This document shows, piece by piece, positions 10,613 to 38,353 of a DNA stretch of 64,000 bases (its first letter is position 1; the number at the start of each line of letters is the position of its first letter). A model generated the notes under the pieces. It saw only the letters and a list, made by a program, of their open reading frames with translations, was not told the DNA's origin and did not search any database. Origin of the DNA: Mycobacterium decipiens (GTDB lineage: Bacteria; Actinomycetota; Actinomycetes; Mycobacteriales; Mycobacteriaceae); contig NZ_OY970459.1 in assembly GCF_963853665.1 (NCBI RefSeq), positions 4,712,001-4,776,000 of the forward strand, written 5' to 3'. The position numbers were made by a program, and so were the translations under genes.

Positions 10613-11072
10613 GTTGTCCTCCGCGCGATTCGCATCGTCGGGTCGGTCGACGGTCACCATGGTGGCCGACGCTATCGCCCTCGGCGCGGTCCGCCGAACC
10701 GGGCACAGTCGAGCGCCGCTCACGGGCCCCAGCCTGGCCGATCTCACCCGACTTACCCCACCGGCCGCTCATTAGTGCAACTAATTTCGTTGAAGTCCCT
10801 GTGAGCCATAGGACTCCGCGATCGGTTAATGTAGCGTTCAGCTCGTGTTCAGGTGGATGGGACCTCTGACCGAGCCGTGGATGCATTTGCCCGCACAGTT
10901 TGGTTGTCCAAGTGGACCTAAGCCATTTCGCGGTCCGTTGTGCACTCGCATTCATTGGACCAGACGCCAGCAACGCCTGTGATGCGCAGGAGGTAGGCGA
11001 TCAGATCGCTTGACTACCAATCAATCTTGATCTCCCGAGTCGATGCTCGGGCTAATGGGGAGGAATACGCGC
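10613..11072. other. divergent intergenic region between kgtP and PE31
   Basis: 460 bp with no credible gene; frames in it are shadows. It must hold both promoters. The only structured element I see is the inverted repeat at 10773-10785. Confidence 0.7.
10773..10785. promoter_or_regulatory. inverted repeat upstream of kgtP
   Basis: TTAGTGCAACTAA is a perfect dyad (TTAGT, 3-base spacer, ACTAA), 161 bp upstream of the kgtP start. Such dyads are bound by MarR/HxlR-type regulators in other bacteria. No regulator gene lies next to it, so the assignment is tentative. Confidence 0.35.
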
Positions 11073-11369
11073 GTGGGTTTGACGGCACAACCAGAAATGT
11101 TGGCGGCGGCGGCTGAGAGACTCGGTTCCCTGGGTGCAACGCTAAACGCCAGCAATATCGCTGCAGCCGGCCCGACATTGGGTGTGCTGCCCCCAGCCGC
11201 CGATGAGGTGTCGTTGCTGCTTGCCACCCAGTTCCGTGCGCATGCGGCGATCTATCAGCAGGTCAGCGCCAAGGCCGCGGTGATCCACGAGCGGTTTGTG
11301 ACCACGCTGGCCACCTGTGCTAGTTCGTATGCTTCCACCGAGGAAGCCAACAAGATGGCCGCGAGCTAG
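11073..11369 (+). CDS. PE31: PE family protein PE31
   Basis: 98 residues from GTG 11073, with ggggagg about 9 bases upstream; the length equals H37Rv PE31. It is a pure PE domain: TAQPEMLAAAAERLGSLGATL at the start, then LPPAADEVSLLLATQFRAHAA, two antiparallel helices, with YASTE close to the end as the YxxxD/E-type secretion signal. PE proteins pair with a PPE partner and are exported through an ESX system. The partner gene PPE60 begins 44 bp downstream, so the pair is probably one transcript. Confidence 0.92.
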   Translation: MGLTAQPEMLAAAAERLGSLGATLNASNIAAAGPTLGVLPPAADEVSLLLATQFRAHAAIYQQVSAKAAVIHERFVTTLATCASSYASTEEANKMAAS

Positions 11370-11413
11370 CTTGATCTGACCAAATCCGGGCAGCGCTAAG
11401 CGAAGGAAGAACA

Positions 11414-12598
11414 GTGGGCGATTTCGAGCTACTACCACCGGAGATCAACTCCACGAATATGTATTCCGGTTCCGGTGCGGAGTCGCTGCTGATCGCGGCC
11501 GGGATGTGGGACCAACTGGCTGCCGACCTGTATTCCGCCGCGGAGACGATTCAATCGGTGGTTTGGGGAGTCACCACGGGATCGTGGATGGGTGCGTCGT
11601 CGGGCTTGATGGCGGTGGCGGTCGCACCGTACGTGGCGTGGATGAACATCGCCGCGGCGCAGGCCGAGCTGACCGCCGACCAGCTCCGGGCTGCTGCGGC
11701 GGCCTACGAGGCGGCATATGAAATGACAGTGCCCCCGGAGCTGGTTGCCCAAAACCGGATCCGGTTGGCGATGCTGACCGCGACCAACATCTTCGGGCAA
11801 AACACTACGGCGATGGCGGCCGCCGAGACCGAATACTGCGAGATGTGGGCCCAGGACACGGCCGCGATGTACGGCTATGCGGCCGCAGCTGCGATCGCTA
11901 CCGATACGTTGACGCCATTCGAGGAAGCCCCGGAGATCACCAACGTCGGTGGGCTCGCCTTGCAGGCCGCCGCAGTGAACGAGGCCTTCGACTCGGCGAC
12001 GGCCAACCAGCTGATGAACAATGTGCCCGAGGCCCTGTACCAGCTGGCCCTGCCCGCACAAAGCTCCGGGCCGCTTGGCAAGCTGGGTGACGTGTGGAAG
12101 GCCATCACACCGCACCTGGGCCCGGTCAGCAACATCGTGTCGATCCTCAACAACCACGTGGGAATGGCCGGTTGCGGTGTGTCGATGCTCAGCACCTTGA
12201 GCTCGCTGTTCAAGGGGATGGTTCCCGCGGCGGCCGAGGCCCTGGAGGCCGTGGCAGAAACCGCGGCAGAAACCGGGGTCAGCGCGCTGAGTTCGCTGGG
12301 CAGCGGGCTGGGTTTGCAAGGCGTGGGCAGTGGTGTGGCCGCGGGCTTGGGCAAGGCGGTGACGGTCGGCTCGTTCTCGGCGCCGCCGGCCTGGAATGCG
12401 GCCACCGAGGCGGTCACACCCGCGGCGCGGGCGTTGCCGCTGGCCAACCTGGTCAGCGACACCCAACCAGCACCCGGACACATGCTGGGCGGGTTGCCGG
12501 TGGGGCAGATGGCCAGCGGTGCTGGCGGCGGGGTTAGCAACACGCTGCGGGTGCCGGCGCGGGCCTATGTGATACCCCGCATACCGGCCGCCGGCTAA
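11414..12598 (+). CDS. PPE60: PPE family protein PPE60 (SVP subfamily)
   Basis: 394 residues from GTG 11414 with gaaggaag upstream (H37Rv PPE60: 393 as I remember). Residues 1-180 are the PPE domain: ELLPPEINSTNMYSGSGAES, SWMGASSGLM with the WxG-like turn, and EYCEMWAQDTAAMYGYA near its end. The SVP subfamily signature GxxSVPxxW near residue 318 appears here as VGSFSAPPAWN, with V replaced by A and an extra Pro. The protein ends RIPAAG like its homologs. It forms a heterodimer with PE31 and should be exported by ESX-5-type machinery. Confidence 0.92.
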   Translation: MGDFELLPPEINSTNMYSGSGAESLLIAAGMWDQLAADLYSAAETIQSVVWGVTTGSWMGASSGLMAVAVAPYVAWMNIAAAQAELTADQLRAAAAAYEAAYEMTVPPELVAQNRIRLAMLTATNIFGQNTTAMAAAETEYCEMWAQDTAAMYGYAAAAAIATDTLTPFEEAPEITNVGGLALQAAAVNEAFDSATANQLMNNVPEALYQLALPAQSSGPLGKLGDVWKAITPHLGPVSNIVSILNNHVGMAGCGVSMLSTLSSLFKGMVPAAAEALEAVAETAAETGVSALSSLGSGLGLQGVGSGVAAGLGKAVTVGSFSAPPAWNAATEAVTPAARALPLANLVSDTQPAPGHMLGGLPVGQMASGAGGGVSNTLRVPARAYVIPRIPAAG

Positions 12599-25275: not shown

Positions 25276-26292
25276 TCAGAACGCCGTCTCGTGCGCGGAC
25301 TCGCGCACCGCGGTGGGCCAGCGCAGCCGCACCAGCAAGTCACCGGGCAGATCTGTGTGCCCGTCCAGTCGCTGTATTGACAAGGGATTCAGTGCCAGCA
25401 GCGCCGCGCGGTGGTTGCCATGCTGGGGAACCAGGCCTGGCGGCGGGGCGCCCCGCGGCTCCGCGCTGGTCCGGAAGGCACACGCGGCCGCCAGGGTGCG
25501 ACCGGTTCCGTTGCCGGCGATTTCCAGCGCTGTCCAGGTCTCGCGCGCCGGATGGCACCGGATCGCGGCCAGGGTTTCGGGCAGCGCGTCATCGACGCTG
25601 ATCCGGTAGGCCGCTACACAATCCCTCTTGCCAGTTGCCGTCTCGCGCACGACCCCGCGCCAGCTCTCGCGCGCCGATCGCGCGACCAACGGCGGGACGT
25701 CGCCGGGCTCAGCCGTGCTGGCCGCCCATCCGACTTCGCGGAGCTGCTCGGCGAGCCGGCGAGCCGCGACCTGAGTGGTCTGGTGCAACGGGATGCGCGA
25801 CGAGCGGGCCTGCAGCGCCGCCAGGTTGTCGACGGCTGACACCGTCAGCCCGATCCAGGTCTCCCAAATTTCAGTTTCGATGTCATGGTTGGTAATTCGG
25901 ATCCGCTCAGCGCGGATGCCGTAACGATTTAGATACCCGGCGATCAGCGGCAACGGAAGCGCGTCCGGATTGGCCGTCAGCGGTCGGATGCGTATCAGTG
26001 CGGTCGTCTGAACGTCGATTCCCGCTATCCGCCCGGACCGTCGGTGGCCGAATCGTCGCCGGCGGCGGGACATCGCCAGCCGGCGGCCCAGGATCGTGGT
26101 TAGGTGCACGCCGCGCCACCACGCCAACACCACGATCACAACGACGACAGCGACGCCGAGCACCCATTGCTCGCGTGTCGACCGCCAGGGACAAGCCAAT
26201 GTCGCAGGCACCGCGACCAGCAGTGCCAGTGTCATCCGGCCGGTGCCCGGCCAGACACTGGGAAACCGCCTTGCGGCTGCGTCGAACCTCAC
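25276..26292 (-). CDS. EccE3-like type VII secretion membrane component
   Basis: 338 residues from ATG 26292. Two membrane segments lie at the start (MTLALLVAVPATLACPW and WVLGVAVVVVIVVLAWWRG), followed by RRRRRFGHRR and a cytosolic domain. The blocks IAGYLNRYGIRAERIRIT, WIGLTVSAVDNLAALQARSSRIPL, QVAARRLAEQLREVGW and LVPQHGNHRAALLALNPLS match EccE3 (Rv0292, 331 aa) as I remember it. EccE sits at the outside of the ESX core complex and stabilises it. Here it follows esxG/esxH-like genes but no espG, eccD or mycP, so it is a partial second copy of the ESX-3 locus. It looks intact; whether it exchanges into the main ESX-3 complex is open. Confidence 0.85.
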   Translation of the reverse strand: MRFDAAARRFPSVWPGTGRMTLALLVAVPATLACPWRSTREQWVLGVAVVVVIVVLAWWRGVHLTTILGRRLAMSRRRRRFGHRRSGRIAGIDVQTTALIRIRPLTANPDALPLPLIAGYLNRYGIRAERIRITNHDIETEIWETWIGLTVSAVDNLAALQARSSRIPLHQTTQVAARRLAEQLREVGWAASTAEPGDVPPLVARSARESWRGVVRETATGKRDCVAAYRISVDDALPETLAAIRCHPARETWTALEIAGNGTGRTLAAACAFRTSAEPRGAPPPGLVPQHGNHRAALLALNPLSIQRLDGHTDLPGDLLVRLRWPTAVRESAHETAF

Positions 26293-26381
26293 AAAGGCGG
26301 TGTCCCCTCATCGCTCATCGAGTGGCGGCCGCGATGCCGATATCACGACGTACGCCACCGCCCGGGAGGCCTCGTCGCCGG

Positions 26382-26672
26382 TTAACCGCCCCATTTGGCG
26401 GCTTCGGCCCCGTCGCGGGCCAGCATGGCCACGGTGTTGGATTCATGGCTGCTGGCCATCGAGTGGTAGGCGCGTATCAGGTCCTCCACGGCAAAGTTCC
26501 ATCGCGTTTGCCAGCCCTGATAGGTCGACCCGGTATCCCCCTGCCAGGCACGCGACAGTACCGCCTGCTCGCTGGCGATATCGGCCCCCAAGCTCTGCAG
26601 CGTGCCCGCATAACCCGACATGTCCCCGGCGTGCGCCATCATCGCCGGGTAGTTGTACATGATCTGCGACAT
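26382..26672 (-). CDS. EsxH (TB10.4)-like secreted protein
   Basis: 96 residues from ATG 26672 (aaaggg 6 bases upstream), the same length as EsxH. The start [20 protein letters not shown] is the EsxH/EsxR signature; [13 protein letters not shown] holds the WxG turn; [10 protein letters not shown] ends it as in EsxH. Residue [10 protein letters not shown] replaces the usual SSTHEANT. EsxH pairs with EsxG, is exported by ESX-3, and takes part in siderophore-linked iron uptake and host ESCRT interference. It starts 11 bp after the esxG-like stop. This is a paralog beyond the usual Rv0288 and Rv3019c copies, judged by its neighbours. Confidence 0.88.
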
Positions 26673-26683
26673 CACAAACCCTT

Positions 26684-26965
26684 TCAGAAACCCGTGTAAC
26701 TGGACGCCGCGGCCGCATCGGCGGCCACATAGGTGCCCGCGGCCTCACCCATGTTGGCCTGCGCGATATCCAACAGCATGTTGCCCCTCGAGGCGGCCGC
26801 CACGAACCGGGCATGGGCGGCTTGAAACGCCCCTTGATGAAACGCTTGCGCCGACATCGCCGACTCCTCGGCCTGACTAATCGTGTGCCGCATCAACCCC
26901 GCCTTGGCGGCAAACGCCGACTGCGACGCCACCAACTGCGGAATATGGGCATCCAACAAACTCAT
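26684..26965 (-). CDS. EsxG-like secreted protein with a four-residue deletion
   Basis: 93 residues from ATG 26965 (aggag upstream; a second ATG at 26968 is too close to it). [24 protein letters not shown] and [12 protein letters not shown] identify EsxG/EsxS. EsxG and EsxS have 97 residues, reading HQGESSAAFQ or HQGESAAAFQ at the bend between the helices. Here the text is [12 protein letters not shown], so four residues are missing in frame. The lost part is in the turn of the helical hairpin, so pairing with the EsxH-like partner may be changed. The general secretion signal cannot be judged. Confidence 0.85.
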
Positions 26966-27080
26966 CATGCTCCTCTCGTTTTAGGTTGCCAATTGCTCGC
27001 TATCACGTTGCGAAGCCGACCTAACCCTCCTCAACTCGCCACCCGCGGTCCAGCAGGGAACTCATCGCTAGCCAACGTGG

Positions 27081-27581
27081 TCAGCCCGGCGGGCTGGGTG
27101 AGCGTCTGCTTCCGCCACCCCGATCCGAAGGCGCCACCGATTCCGGTGCACCCGCCGGAGCGGCAGCAGCGGCGAACGGCGCCCCAGCCAAGTTCATCTG
27201 GGACGCAACGAGCGCAACTAGCGGGTTTGGCAACGCAGCGGCCAATCCGGTGGTGGTGCCTGTGCTCCCCGAAGGCGTTGACCATCGCGATGATGTTGCC
27301 GATCGGGTCCTGTCGGAAAGGGCGTCTTCCTTCAGCACCGGCAAGTTGGAGTCAAGGTAGATTTCCGCCAGAAGCTTGCCGAATTCCCGGATCAGGTCCC
27401 AGGGGGACTCCTCGGTGCTCATCGCAGTCGCGGCCGGGATCCGCATCCGCAGACGGTCGGCCTCGTTGGGCGCGATCGGGATGACATTGATCCATGTGGA
27501 GACGTACTCGACACTCAGCGACGTCCACACCGCTGCGACCGGCACCTCCGGCGGCGGAGCTTCCCAGGCCGGTGCGGTCAT
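27081..27581 (-). pseudogene. PPE4-like ORF with large internal deletions
   Basis: An open frame of 166 residues whose ATG 27581 overlaps the PE stop (ATGA), the normal PE-PPE arrangement. It begins [13 protein letters not shown] as an ESX-3 PPE would, then skips to VWTSLSVEYVS (missing about 18 residues) and jumps again to INVIPIAPNEADRLRMRIP, which equals the GINTIPIALNESDYARMWIQ region of PPE4 near residue 130. Roughly 85 residues in between are gone, and the tail has only short PPE-like pieces. The PPE helical core needed to pair with PE is therefore broken. The frame is still open, so a short protein could be made. Confidence 0.7.
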
Positions 27582-27889
27582 AAGCCACCCTGGATCAGGT
27601 ACGTCGACGCAGCCGCGGCGTCACCGGCCGCATAGCTGGCACCGGTTTCACCCAGCCCAACCCCGGAACGCCAAAGCTCCTCGGCCCCTTCAGCCGCCAC
27701 CGCGACATACTCATTACCTATCGCGCTGAACCCAACCGCGCTCCGCAACGACACCGGATCCGCGGCCGGCGGCACCACCGACGTGAGCAGCGGCGCCGCA
27801 GCGGCCTCCGCGGCCGCCAACCGAGCGGTCAACGCTTCCACCGCAGCGCTCGCAGCCGCCAAACCTTCAGGAATCACCCGGAGCACCAC
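27578..27889 (-). CDS. PE5-like PE protein
   Basis: 103 residues from GTG 27889, 7 bases after an agggag site; the ATG at 27895 would touch that site. [26 protein letters not shown] and [13 protein letters not shown] match PE5 of the ESX-3 locus (Rv0285), and [19 protein letters not shown] is the usual PE5 end. It heads the minus-strand series PE5-like, PPE4-like remnant, esxG-like, esxH-like, eccE3-like. Its natural PPE partner here is damaged, so it may pair with another ESX-3 PPE or be non-functional. Confidence 0.8.
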
Positions 27890-28769
27890 GCGCATCTCCC
27901 TACGAGTAGGGGCTATCGCCGGGCGGTGATGCAGGCAGCGACTGCCCGGGAAACCCAAGTTGTCAGGTATCACGTCCGCGACGCTGGGTGACGCTTCAGC
28001 CGTAATGCTCACCAGCCGCATGCGAAGCCACCAGGGTTAAATCATCCCAACCTGTGCGACGGGCTGAAGCAAATCGCCCTGCCTATCGTCCGCATTTCCG
28101 TATGACGTGTACAAAATGTCCCAACGCGAGCCAAACTTTGTGGCAAATTCGCCATGCCAAAGCGTTATGCGCCCTGTCGCCCGGGAGGTCGTAAACCCAG
28201 ATTGTTGCCGGTGCCAGGCCGACGCCGGTGCGTCCGCAACGAATGGCCGGTATCACCGAGATTGCGCACCTAGGTTACCCTCCTGAAATGGCCAGACAGT
28301 GACAAATTCCCCTTTGTCGAATTATTTTACAACAAGCATACAGCAAATTCTCAGCGATTCGCCCGTACGCTTCAAGGGTTGCGTGATTCCATAAACATGG
28401 ACAGCCCCAAGCACTGGCCCCGCGCTCCCCGGGCGCGGGACGAACGGCTATCTGAAGACGTTGTCACGTTGCAGTGCAAGCAGATCGCCGCAGCGACCAG
28501 CACGCTCGAGGACATTCCGTGCCCCGCCGAACGGACACAGGTTGACTCTAGAGAAGGATGAACAGAATTCATTGCTGCGCCGCTTCGATTTATGTCAGCG
28601 CGAACTTCGAAGGTGCGATGCGCCTCACATTGCAACGGGGCGTGAGATATTGGACATGAGCGCAATGAGCTATAAATTGGGTAGAGCTGGATTGCCTATT
28701 CGCACGCGTGCTGCGGCTACCGCACTTGGGGCGTGCAGATTTCGCGGATTTCCAGACGGGGATAGACAA
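27890..28769. other. non-coding stretch upstream of the PE5-like gene
   Basis: About 880 bp without a convincing gene and clearly richer in A/T than the flanks (for example around 28300-28350, aattattttacaacaagc). It includes the presumed promoter of the ESX-3-like series on the minus strand. Short frames in it lack coding bias. Confidence 0.6.
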
Positions 28770-37429: not shown

Positions 37430-38353
37430 TTACCGACAACCCGCAGGCTGCCCGACAAACTCCGTAGCAACAGCCCCCACGAGCCCGACCGCAGAACTAC
37501 CGGATCGCGGCGCGGCCGGAGCACTTACCAATACAGGAGCCACCGTCCTTCGATGGGCGTCGAAAGACTCGGCACCGACTTCAGCCAAGGAGTCGACGTA
37601 ACCAACACCCCCACCGATAGAAACCGGCAACACGATCGGCGGCGCGATTGCAGCGATGACAGGAGAACTCCCTAGAACGGGCAGAAAAAGAATGGTTCGG
37701 TTGTCGTCAGGAAAAGGAACATCATCGCCAACGTATAGAAAACGTTGTAGGGCAGGAAGTCCAGCACGCCAAGTAGAACCCACCACAGAAACGCCAGTAG
37801 GTCCTCGAACCCGTACACCAGGGCTGCGATACGTTCCGTGATCCAGTCCCAGATGCCGCCGATTGCCGCGGCACCGGTGGTGGCGGGGCGGGACGGGACT
37901 GTGCGCCGGGTCTTAAGAGTATTGGTGCTGGCGTGGTGCGTGGCGCCGAGGCCAATGCCGTGTCTGAGATCTGTTGGTAGATGCGCAGGTGGGAACCTCA
38001 TAGCTTTCAGCACTTCGGCCCTGCCAAGCGCCGACCTGCACTGCGCCCAGCGTGGCAGTGAGTTCGGCTGCCACCAAGGCGTATTCAGAGCTCAGCGATC
38101 TCCACGCTGCGGCTGCGACCAACAGGGATGTTTGCCCCGGACCGTTGCCGAGCAGGGCCGAATGCACCTCCGGCGGAACCGCCGCCCAAACGGGTGCCGT
38201 CATCACGAACCGGCCGAAACAGGTATGCCGTCCCGGCTGCGCATCACGTGCCGGATGACCAACGCCGGACTCACCAACACTGATACCGGAACGACCAAGC
38301 TCCGCGATCCCATCAGCGGCCACCCACAACATCACATGTCTTCCTCTACCCAT
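37430..38353 (-). pseudogene. decayed ESX-3-type PE/PPE pair
   Basis: From 38353: [22 protein letters not shown] is the tail of a PE5-like protein. An ATG at 38203 then starts [21 protein letters not shown], continuing through [37 protein letters not shown], the first 70 residues of an ESX-3-type PPE. The frame is then lost. In a second frame IWDWITERIAALVYGFEDLLAFLWW and following hydrophobic residues (37857-37680), and in a third frame PVIAAIAPPIVLPVSIGGGVGYVDSL (about 37620), look like later PPE parts. Deletions and frameshifts are therefore clear. It is related to, but not a copy of, the remnant at 27.1 kb, which has lost different parts. Confidence 0.65.

Follow-up and report, generated by a model that had tools for sequence, protein, structure and literature searches.

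Mycobacterium decipiens very probably carries an ancient accessory ESX-3 cassette in which a second, diverged EccE3 is maintained by selection. The cassette lies in the window, the whole stretch of 64,000 nucleotides analysed here, where it occupies positions 25276-27895 of the minus strand and consists of PE5, a decayed PPE4, esxG, esxH and an eccE referred to below as eccE3b. The sequence-only reading had described this set as the ESX-3 gene order with its middle absent, and both the open reading frames and the family matches agree with that description. The PE5 copy (27578-27895, minus strand, start codon read from the sequence) matches PF00934 at 73.9 bits, is 72% identical to main PE5 and overlaps the PPE4 remnant (27081-27581, minus strand). 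Alignment of the remnant to PPE4 reveals internal deletions and a frame change, with pieces corresponding to aa 1-44, 131-155, 234-249, 294-355 and 469-493 spread over two frames. These are followed by an esxG copy of 94 aa (26684-26968, minus strand), 90% identical to main EsxG by tblastn but four residues shorter at the inter-helix turn, and by a whole esxH copy of 97 aa (26382-26675, minus strand) with a WXG100 match (PF06013, 64.9 bits) and 88% identity to main EsxH. Neither the window EsxG nor the PPE4 remnant gave a Pfam or NCBIfam match. An 89-bp gap (26293-26381, minus strand) replaces the espG3, eccD3 and mycP3 genes of the main operon, and eccE3b (25276-26292, minus strand) completes the cassette. 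The reported absence of espG, eccD and mycP was upheld: with thresholds of E 1e-4 and 1e-3 the window yielded no match to espG3, eccD3, mycP3, eccA3, eccB3 or eccC3, and no espG3 stub was detected in the 89-bp gap, unlike in the related locus L066. A complete ESX-3 set, with eccA to eccE, mycP, espG, pe/ppe and an esx pair in one cluster, is accordingly not what the window cassette represents. PE5/PPE4-like pieces (71% and 63% identity) are also encountered at 38000-38323 of the window, and a more distant PE-PPE pair at 11043-12598.

The eccE3 paralog had been judged apparently intact, and it is indeed an open frame of 338 aa that passes the EccE family models, TIGR03923 over its full length (198.5 bits against a cut-off of 108) and PF11203 (45.6 bits against 23.7). 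The only PDB chains matched at E ≤ 1e-3 were EccE3 (6lar, 6sgw, 6sgz), with full-length similarity and an E value of 4e-73 to 6lar, and a Foldseek search with the EccE3b model returned EccE3 6umm first at 48% identity, with an ESX-5 EccE at 18%. Compared in these two ways with the other ESX types, EccE3b is an EccE of the ESX-3 type, as the sequence-only reading had supposed, and the tree described below, made up of EccE3 rows, places it within EccE3. The AlphaFold model, built from 16 sequences, has a mean pLDDT of 77, falling below 50 at residues 1-19, 63-66, 77-91 and 330-338, and consists of a cytosolic domain preceded by two transmembrane helices predicted at the N terminus. Against 6umm it reaches a TM-score of 0.59 (by query length) with an rmsd of 9.8, so that the placement of helices is unreliable and the model supports only the predicted fold of EccE3b. 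That fold and the two N-terminal membrane helices are shared with main EccE3 (6umm, 6sgw, 6sgz, 6lar); EccE3b differs in that its gene has no eccB, eccC, eccD or mycP beside it, and in that its docking helices are under no extra constraint.

The genome of M. decipiens is a single contig of 5,303,299 bp and includes a complete ESX-3 at 456.5-471.4 kb, running from eccA3 to eccE3, as is needed if the window cassette is to be an additional copy. A whole-genome search with the window EccE yielded three EccE3 matches in total and no fourth. Beyond what the sequence-only reading had noticed, the window cassette is one of two eccE3-bearing cassettes in this genome, and its esxG is altered as well as its PPE4. 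The second cassette eccE3 (locus L036) is located at 5,074,033-5,074,989 and is 69% identical to the window copy, compared with 59% for the main eccE3. It is preceded by remnants of PE5, esxH and espG3 (aa 8-44) and followed by PE5, PPE4, esxG and esxH. Between the window and the main locus, DNA identity is 88% for esxGH and 69% for eccE. Two esxGH pairs, at 1.530 and 1.535 Mb, have no eccE neighbour, and there is also an esxH-type gene at 2.116 Mb. The two pairs score identically and belong to tandem PE/PPE/esxGH units (L034, 1530480-1535637) that we take to resemble the esxR/esxS locus of M. tuberculosis. Like the window cassette, these esxR/esxS-type copies are PE/PPE/esxGH units of ESX-3 descent; unlike it, they have no eccE at that place.

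The distribution of such cassettes was assessed by searching the window EccE against 396 genomes drawn from the larger genus group. A match at E ≤ 1e-60 was obtained in 281 of the 396, and at least 17 held two or more; with this threshold and five candidates scored per genome, the numbers of second copies are minimum values. The 17 multi-copy genomes include six with the cassette type, namely M. decipiens (G000, twice), G029, M. gastri (G219), M. simulans (G023), M. riyadhense (G064) and G222, which together provide seven EccE copies, all of them open. Eight others have a second ESX-3 with eccD3 and mycP3, from which espG3 is absent where the region is visible, three of the eight being partial at contig ends (L081, L083, L084). 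The five whole loci (L078, L080, L082, L085, L086) also contain eccA-B-C, with PE/PPE/esxGH preceding eccA3. The remaining three have a second complete ESX-3 with espG3 and without a PPE4 match (L088 from M. komossense, L089, L091). ESX-3 substrates are situated beside eccE3b in six of the seven cassette copies, M. gastri showing only the end of esxH at a contig edge; in M. riyadhense the neighbours are PE5-PPE4, with no esxGH match in the cassette. Among named genomes, the window EccE used by itself brought up no relatives; an alignment of six cassette EccE sequences brought up 63 loci. Four of these have no match to eccD3, to mycP3 or to both: L102 (M. gastri), L158 (M. simulans), L159 (M. 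attenuatum) and L128 (M. bohemicum). The M. bohemicum locus still has eccA3, eccB3 and eccC3 together with espG3 and a portion of eccD3, and was set aside because it resembles a gapped main locus.

In a tree of 55 EccE3 rows, restricted to EccE3 and including 37 main copies, the seven cassette EccE form one clade (100/99), and its sister group is a clade (100/98) of 26 of the 37 main rows. This arrangement implies one split, which preceded the divergence of those 26 main copies. The two kinds of second full ESX-3 fall into EccE clades of their own, those without espG3 at 99/97 and those with espG3 at 100/96. Within the cassette clade the two M. decipiens copies have different nearest kin, the window EccE grouping with the copies of G029 and G222 (83/85, 86/73) and the 5.07-Mb EccE with those of M. 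simulans and M. riyadhense (97/91). Cassettes of the same origin in related species point to an old and maintained spare part.

The 5.07-Mb copy occupies a genomic site common to seven loci: L036, L066, L067, L069, L071, L159 (M. attenuatum) and L182 (G222). Each has close by some or all of four genes, an AraC-type regulator, a WS/DGAT-type acyltransferase, a flavin monooxygenase and an HpcH-type gene, each named by likeness, the flank being visible on one side only in L067 and L159. Four further genomes have the same site free of a cassette, with the AraC gene adjoining either the acyltransferase (G105 and M. spongiae, G026) or the monooxygenase (G006, G188). Five of the seven shared-site loci have an intact eccE3b (M. 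decipiens, G029, M. gastri, M. simulans, M. riyadhense); in M. attenuatum the gene is interrupted, and in G222 it is cut to 43 aa. The interruption in M. attenuatum (L159:870-4248) is about 3.4 kb long and contains two ORFs of similar start, of 284 and 285 aa. The window copy and the second copy of G222 (L075) lie off the shared site and have no flanking genes in common. Their PPE4 matches both restart at aa 131 after a deletion that the two may have in common.

Codon models show that eccE3b is under purifying selection, as a gene and on the window branch. With IQ-TREE, whose codon-run topologies were slightly unlike the protein tree, the log-likelihood for six cassette eccE was -4466.47 with ω free and -4610.25 with ω fixed at 1, the corresponding values for six main eccE3 being -3750.70 and -3887.73. 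A purpose-written script was used for branch and block models, and L075 was excluded from the selection tests (long branch, 0.82). The branch model gave an overall ω of 0.267, with 0.261 for the window tip (2ΔlnL 26.4 against ω of 1) and 0.265 for the L036 branch (21.8). The other tips tested also reject an ω of 1 (2ΔlnL 18.9-46.8); those of M. simulans and M. riyadhense are looser, at 0.398. By ω a gene freed just very recently is indistinguishable from a selected one.

Selection on EccE3b is distributed differently from that on main EccE3. According to the accessible part of PMC6986878, the contact of EccE3 with EccD3 involves transmembrane helix 1 and a pair of helices at M. smegmatis aa 133-163. 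By alignment, the pair corresponds to aa 158-188 of the window EccE. For six main EccE3 the ω of this docking block is 0.076 versus 0.231 elsewhere (2ΔlnL 18.3); for six cassette copies it is 0.232 versus 0.250 (2ΔlnL 0.18). When 56 blocks were scanned along the protein, neighbouring blocks overlapping and hence not being independent tests, the top difference between cassette and main copies was at 159-189 (2ΔlnL 10.9), and the next outside the docking block was at 59-89 (2ΔlnL 7.5), a second independent relaxed region. Block-to-rest ratios were 0.33-0.45 in four sets of main copies and 0.75, 0.66 and 1.21 in three cassette subsets. A subset of the window, L066 and L036 copies gave 0.140 versus 0.225 (ratio 0.62), a result that is significant in neither direction. 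The extra constraint on the docking helices has been lost in the cassette line as a whole; taken by subgroup, these tests put the loss most strongly in L036, M. simulans and M. riyadhense, and leave it weak or undecided in the subgroup of the window. Transmembrane helix 1 is likewise better conserved in main copies than in the cassette line. Several features of the contact are nonetheless retained. The window EccE is 77% identical to main copies in the docking helices and 59% in the remainder. In M. smegmatis an EccE3 arginine pairs with E110 of the EccD3 linker, as stated in the accessible part of PMC11370616. The linker-facing arginine is kept in six of the seven cassette EccE, with histidine in L075, and the equivalent of R99 in all seven, with cysteine in the main copies L072, L073 and L074. 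EccD3 of M. decipiens has the linker motif EDIADA.

Control by iron through IdeR, raised by the sequence-only reading, found no backing in a comparison with an IdeR consensus. The best IdeR-like box before the cassette scores 11/19, a level of chance given that 44 places in the window score at least 11 (two of them 13). An IdeR-like palindrome about 30 bp before the main eccA3 frame scores 14/19 and is kept in L072 and L073 at 13/19. With a palindrome at the main operon and none above chance at the cassette, the upstream sequences suggest that the cassette is likely controlled separately from main ESX-3. Shared-site cassettes have an inverted-repeat element, CTACGNAACCGTAG, upstream of PE5 (L066:13523, L069:13516, L071:5773, and L036:9884 and 11625, one of the latter before the PE5 remnant). 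It is absent before PE5 of the window, L075 and the main locus. The element occurs at six places in the genome, versus two for the pattern read backwards, and among the neighbours of the other places no regulator was identified.

In the most likely history, the ESX-3 operon was duplicated long ago and the duplicate shed eccABC along with the espG3-eccD3-mycP3 stretch. The espG3 stubs immediately before eccE in the sister loci L066 and L036 are as expected if espG3-eccD3-mycP3 had been excised, and to that extent the origin fits the suggestion of the sequence-only reading that the cassette is a fossil of a full duplicated system; its age, its presence in several species and the purifying selection on eccE3b speak against a mere fossil. 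What was left would have become an accessory cassette of substrates (PE5, PPE4, EsxG, EsxH) and a diverged EccE3. EccE3b would sit in the inner membrane and, as is suggested tentatively, dock on EccD3 of the sole complete ESX-3, more loosely than main EccE3 does. Some ESX-3 complexes would then carry the second EccE, and ESX-3 might be tuned by it, perhaps to the adjacent cargo, as ESX-5a serves ESX-5. That EccE3b is an alternative component of the ESX-3 core, as had been proposed, is on sequence grounds possible. The reading as a whole, an accessory ESX-3 cassette with a loosely docking alternative EccE, is our first choice and the most likely explanation, held at a little below even chances; it is favoured by the single clade, the low ω, the kept fold, the retained arginine and EDIADA motif, the likeness of the docking helices, the substrate neighbours and the precedent of ESX-5a. 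Against loose docking count the unconstrained docking block, the histidine in L075, the broken relatives, the damaged PPE4 and EsxG, and the lack of eccD, mycP and espG in the cassette.

The unconstrained block could also be read as a sign that EccE3b has been repurposed as a membrane protein off the EccD3 site, where it would act by itself, compete with ESX-3 or work with some other partner. Purifying selection persists while the block shows no extra constraint, the block is the largest cassette-main difference among the overlapping ones scanned, main sets keep a constraint there that three cassette subsets do not, and the cassette is without the partner core genes. This second choice is nevertheless rather unlikely, as cassette subsets that include the window copy tend to retain some constraint (0.62-0.75, not significant), the linker-facing arginine is nearly always kept and no candidate partner is known. 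Slow decay, with the cassette a relic of a duplicated ESX-3 under loss and eccE3b its last frame standing, ranks third and is less probable again. It would account for the fragmented PPE4 and partly deleted EsxG of the window, for the interrupted eccE3b of M. attenuatum and the shrunken one of G222 at the shared site, for the looser tips of M. simulans and M. riyadhense, and for an intact cassette copy in at least six of the 281 genomes with an EccE3 match at E ≤ 1e-60, which we count as few, yet the window tip and every other tested tip reject neutrality and seven of seven copies are open. It is very improbable that eccE3b is a passenger in a cassette kept for esxGH/PE5 cargo that exchanges with other copies by putative gene conversion: the greater likeness of esxGH than of eccE within the genome and the existence of esxGH pairs without eccE would fit, but an ω of 0.26 is unexpected of a passenger and M. 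riyadhense retains eccE where esxGH has no match.

Partial ESX duplicates are already known. As described in the accessible part of PMC4852179, ESX-5a, ESX-5b and ESX-5c of M. tuberculosis are duplicated four-gene regions with a pe, a ppe and an esx pair, and ESX-5a has been proposed to serve the secretion of some ESX-5 substrates. Going by that part, these regions are like the window cassette in lying far from the parent system without a secretion apparatus of their own, and differ in having no membrane-core genes, the window cassette deriving from ESX-3 and keeping an intact, diverged EccE. Measured against the ESX-5a type, it has the duplicated pe/ppe/esx pair off the parent system, with PPE4 decayed, and departs from it by an apparatus gene, the intact eccE. 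ESX-6 of M. marinum, according to the accessible part of PMC6089878, is also a partial duplicate of an ESX locus, in this case ESX-1, with extra esx genes and present in strains of that species; the copies of esxA/esxB are stressed there, whereas the window cassette type spans several species and traces to one EccE3 split. What distinguishes the window cassette from these is the retained and selected second EccE3. No ESX-3 cassette with a second eccE was found in the open-access titles and abstracts searched, and the accessible part of PMC11237670, which compares ESX loci of M. decipiens, does not mention the window cassette.

Accessory ESX cassettes can thus hold machinery besides cargo. In our view, EccE is among the least understood core parts of ESX systems, and a selected, diverged EccE3 with a freed EccD3-docking surface and the rest constrained is a natural experiment on its role. 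It is conceivable, though doubtful, that selection maintains EccE3b as an orphan core subunit. It could be an exchangeable EccE through which ESX-3 gains a second assembly state and separate cargo, or it could have been recruited to work outside the ESX core; if true, either would contradict the common view that each ESX system has a single set of core parts. In cassette-bearing species, a uniform composition of ESX-3 should not be presumed.
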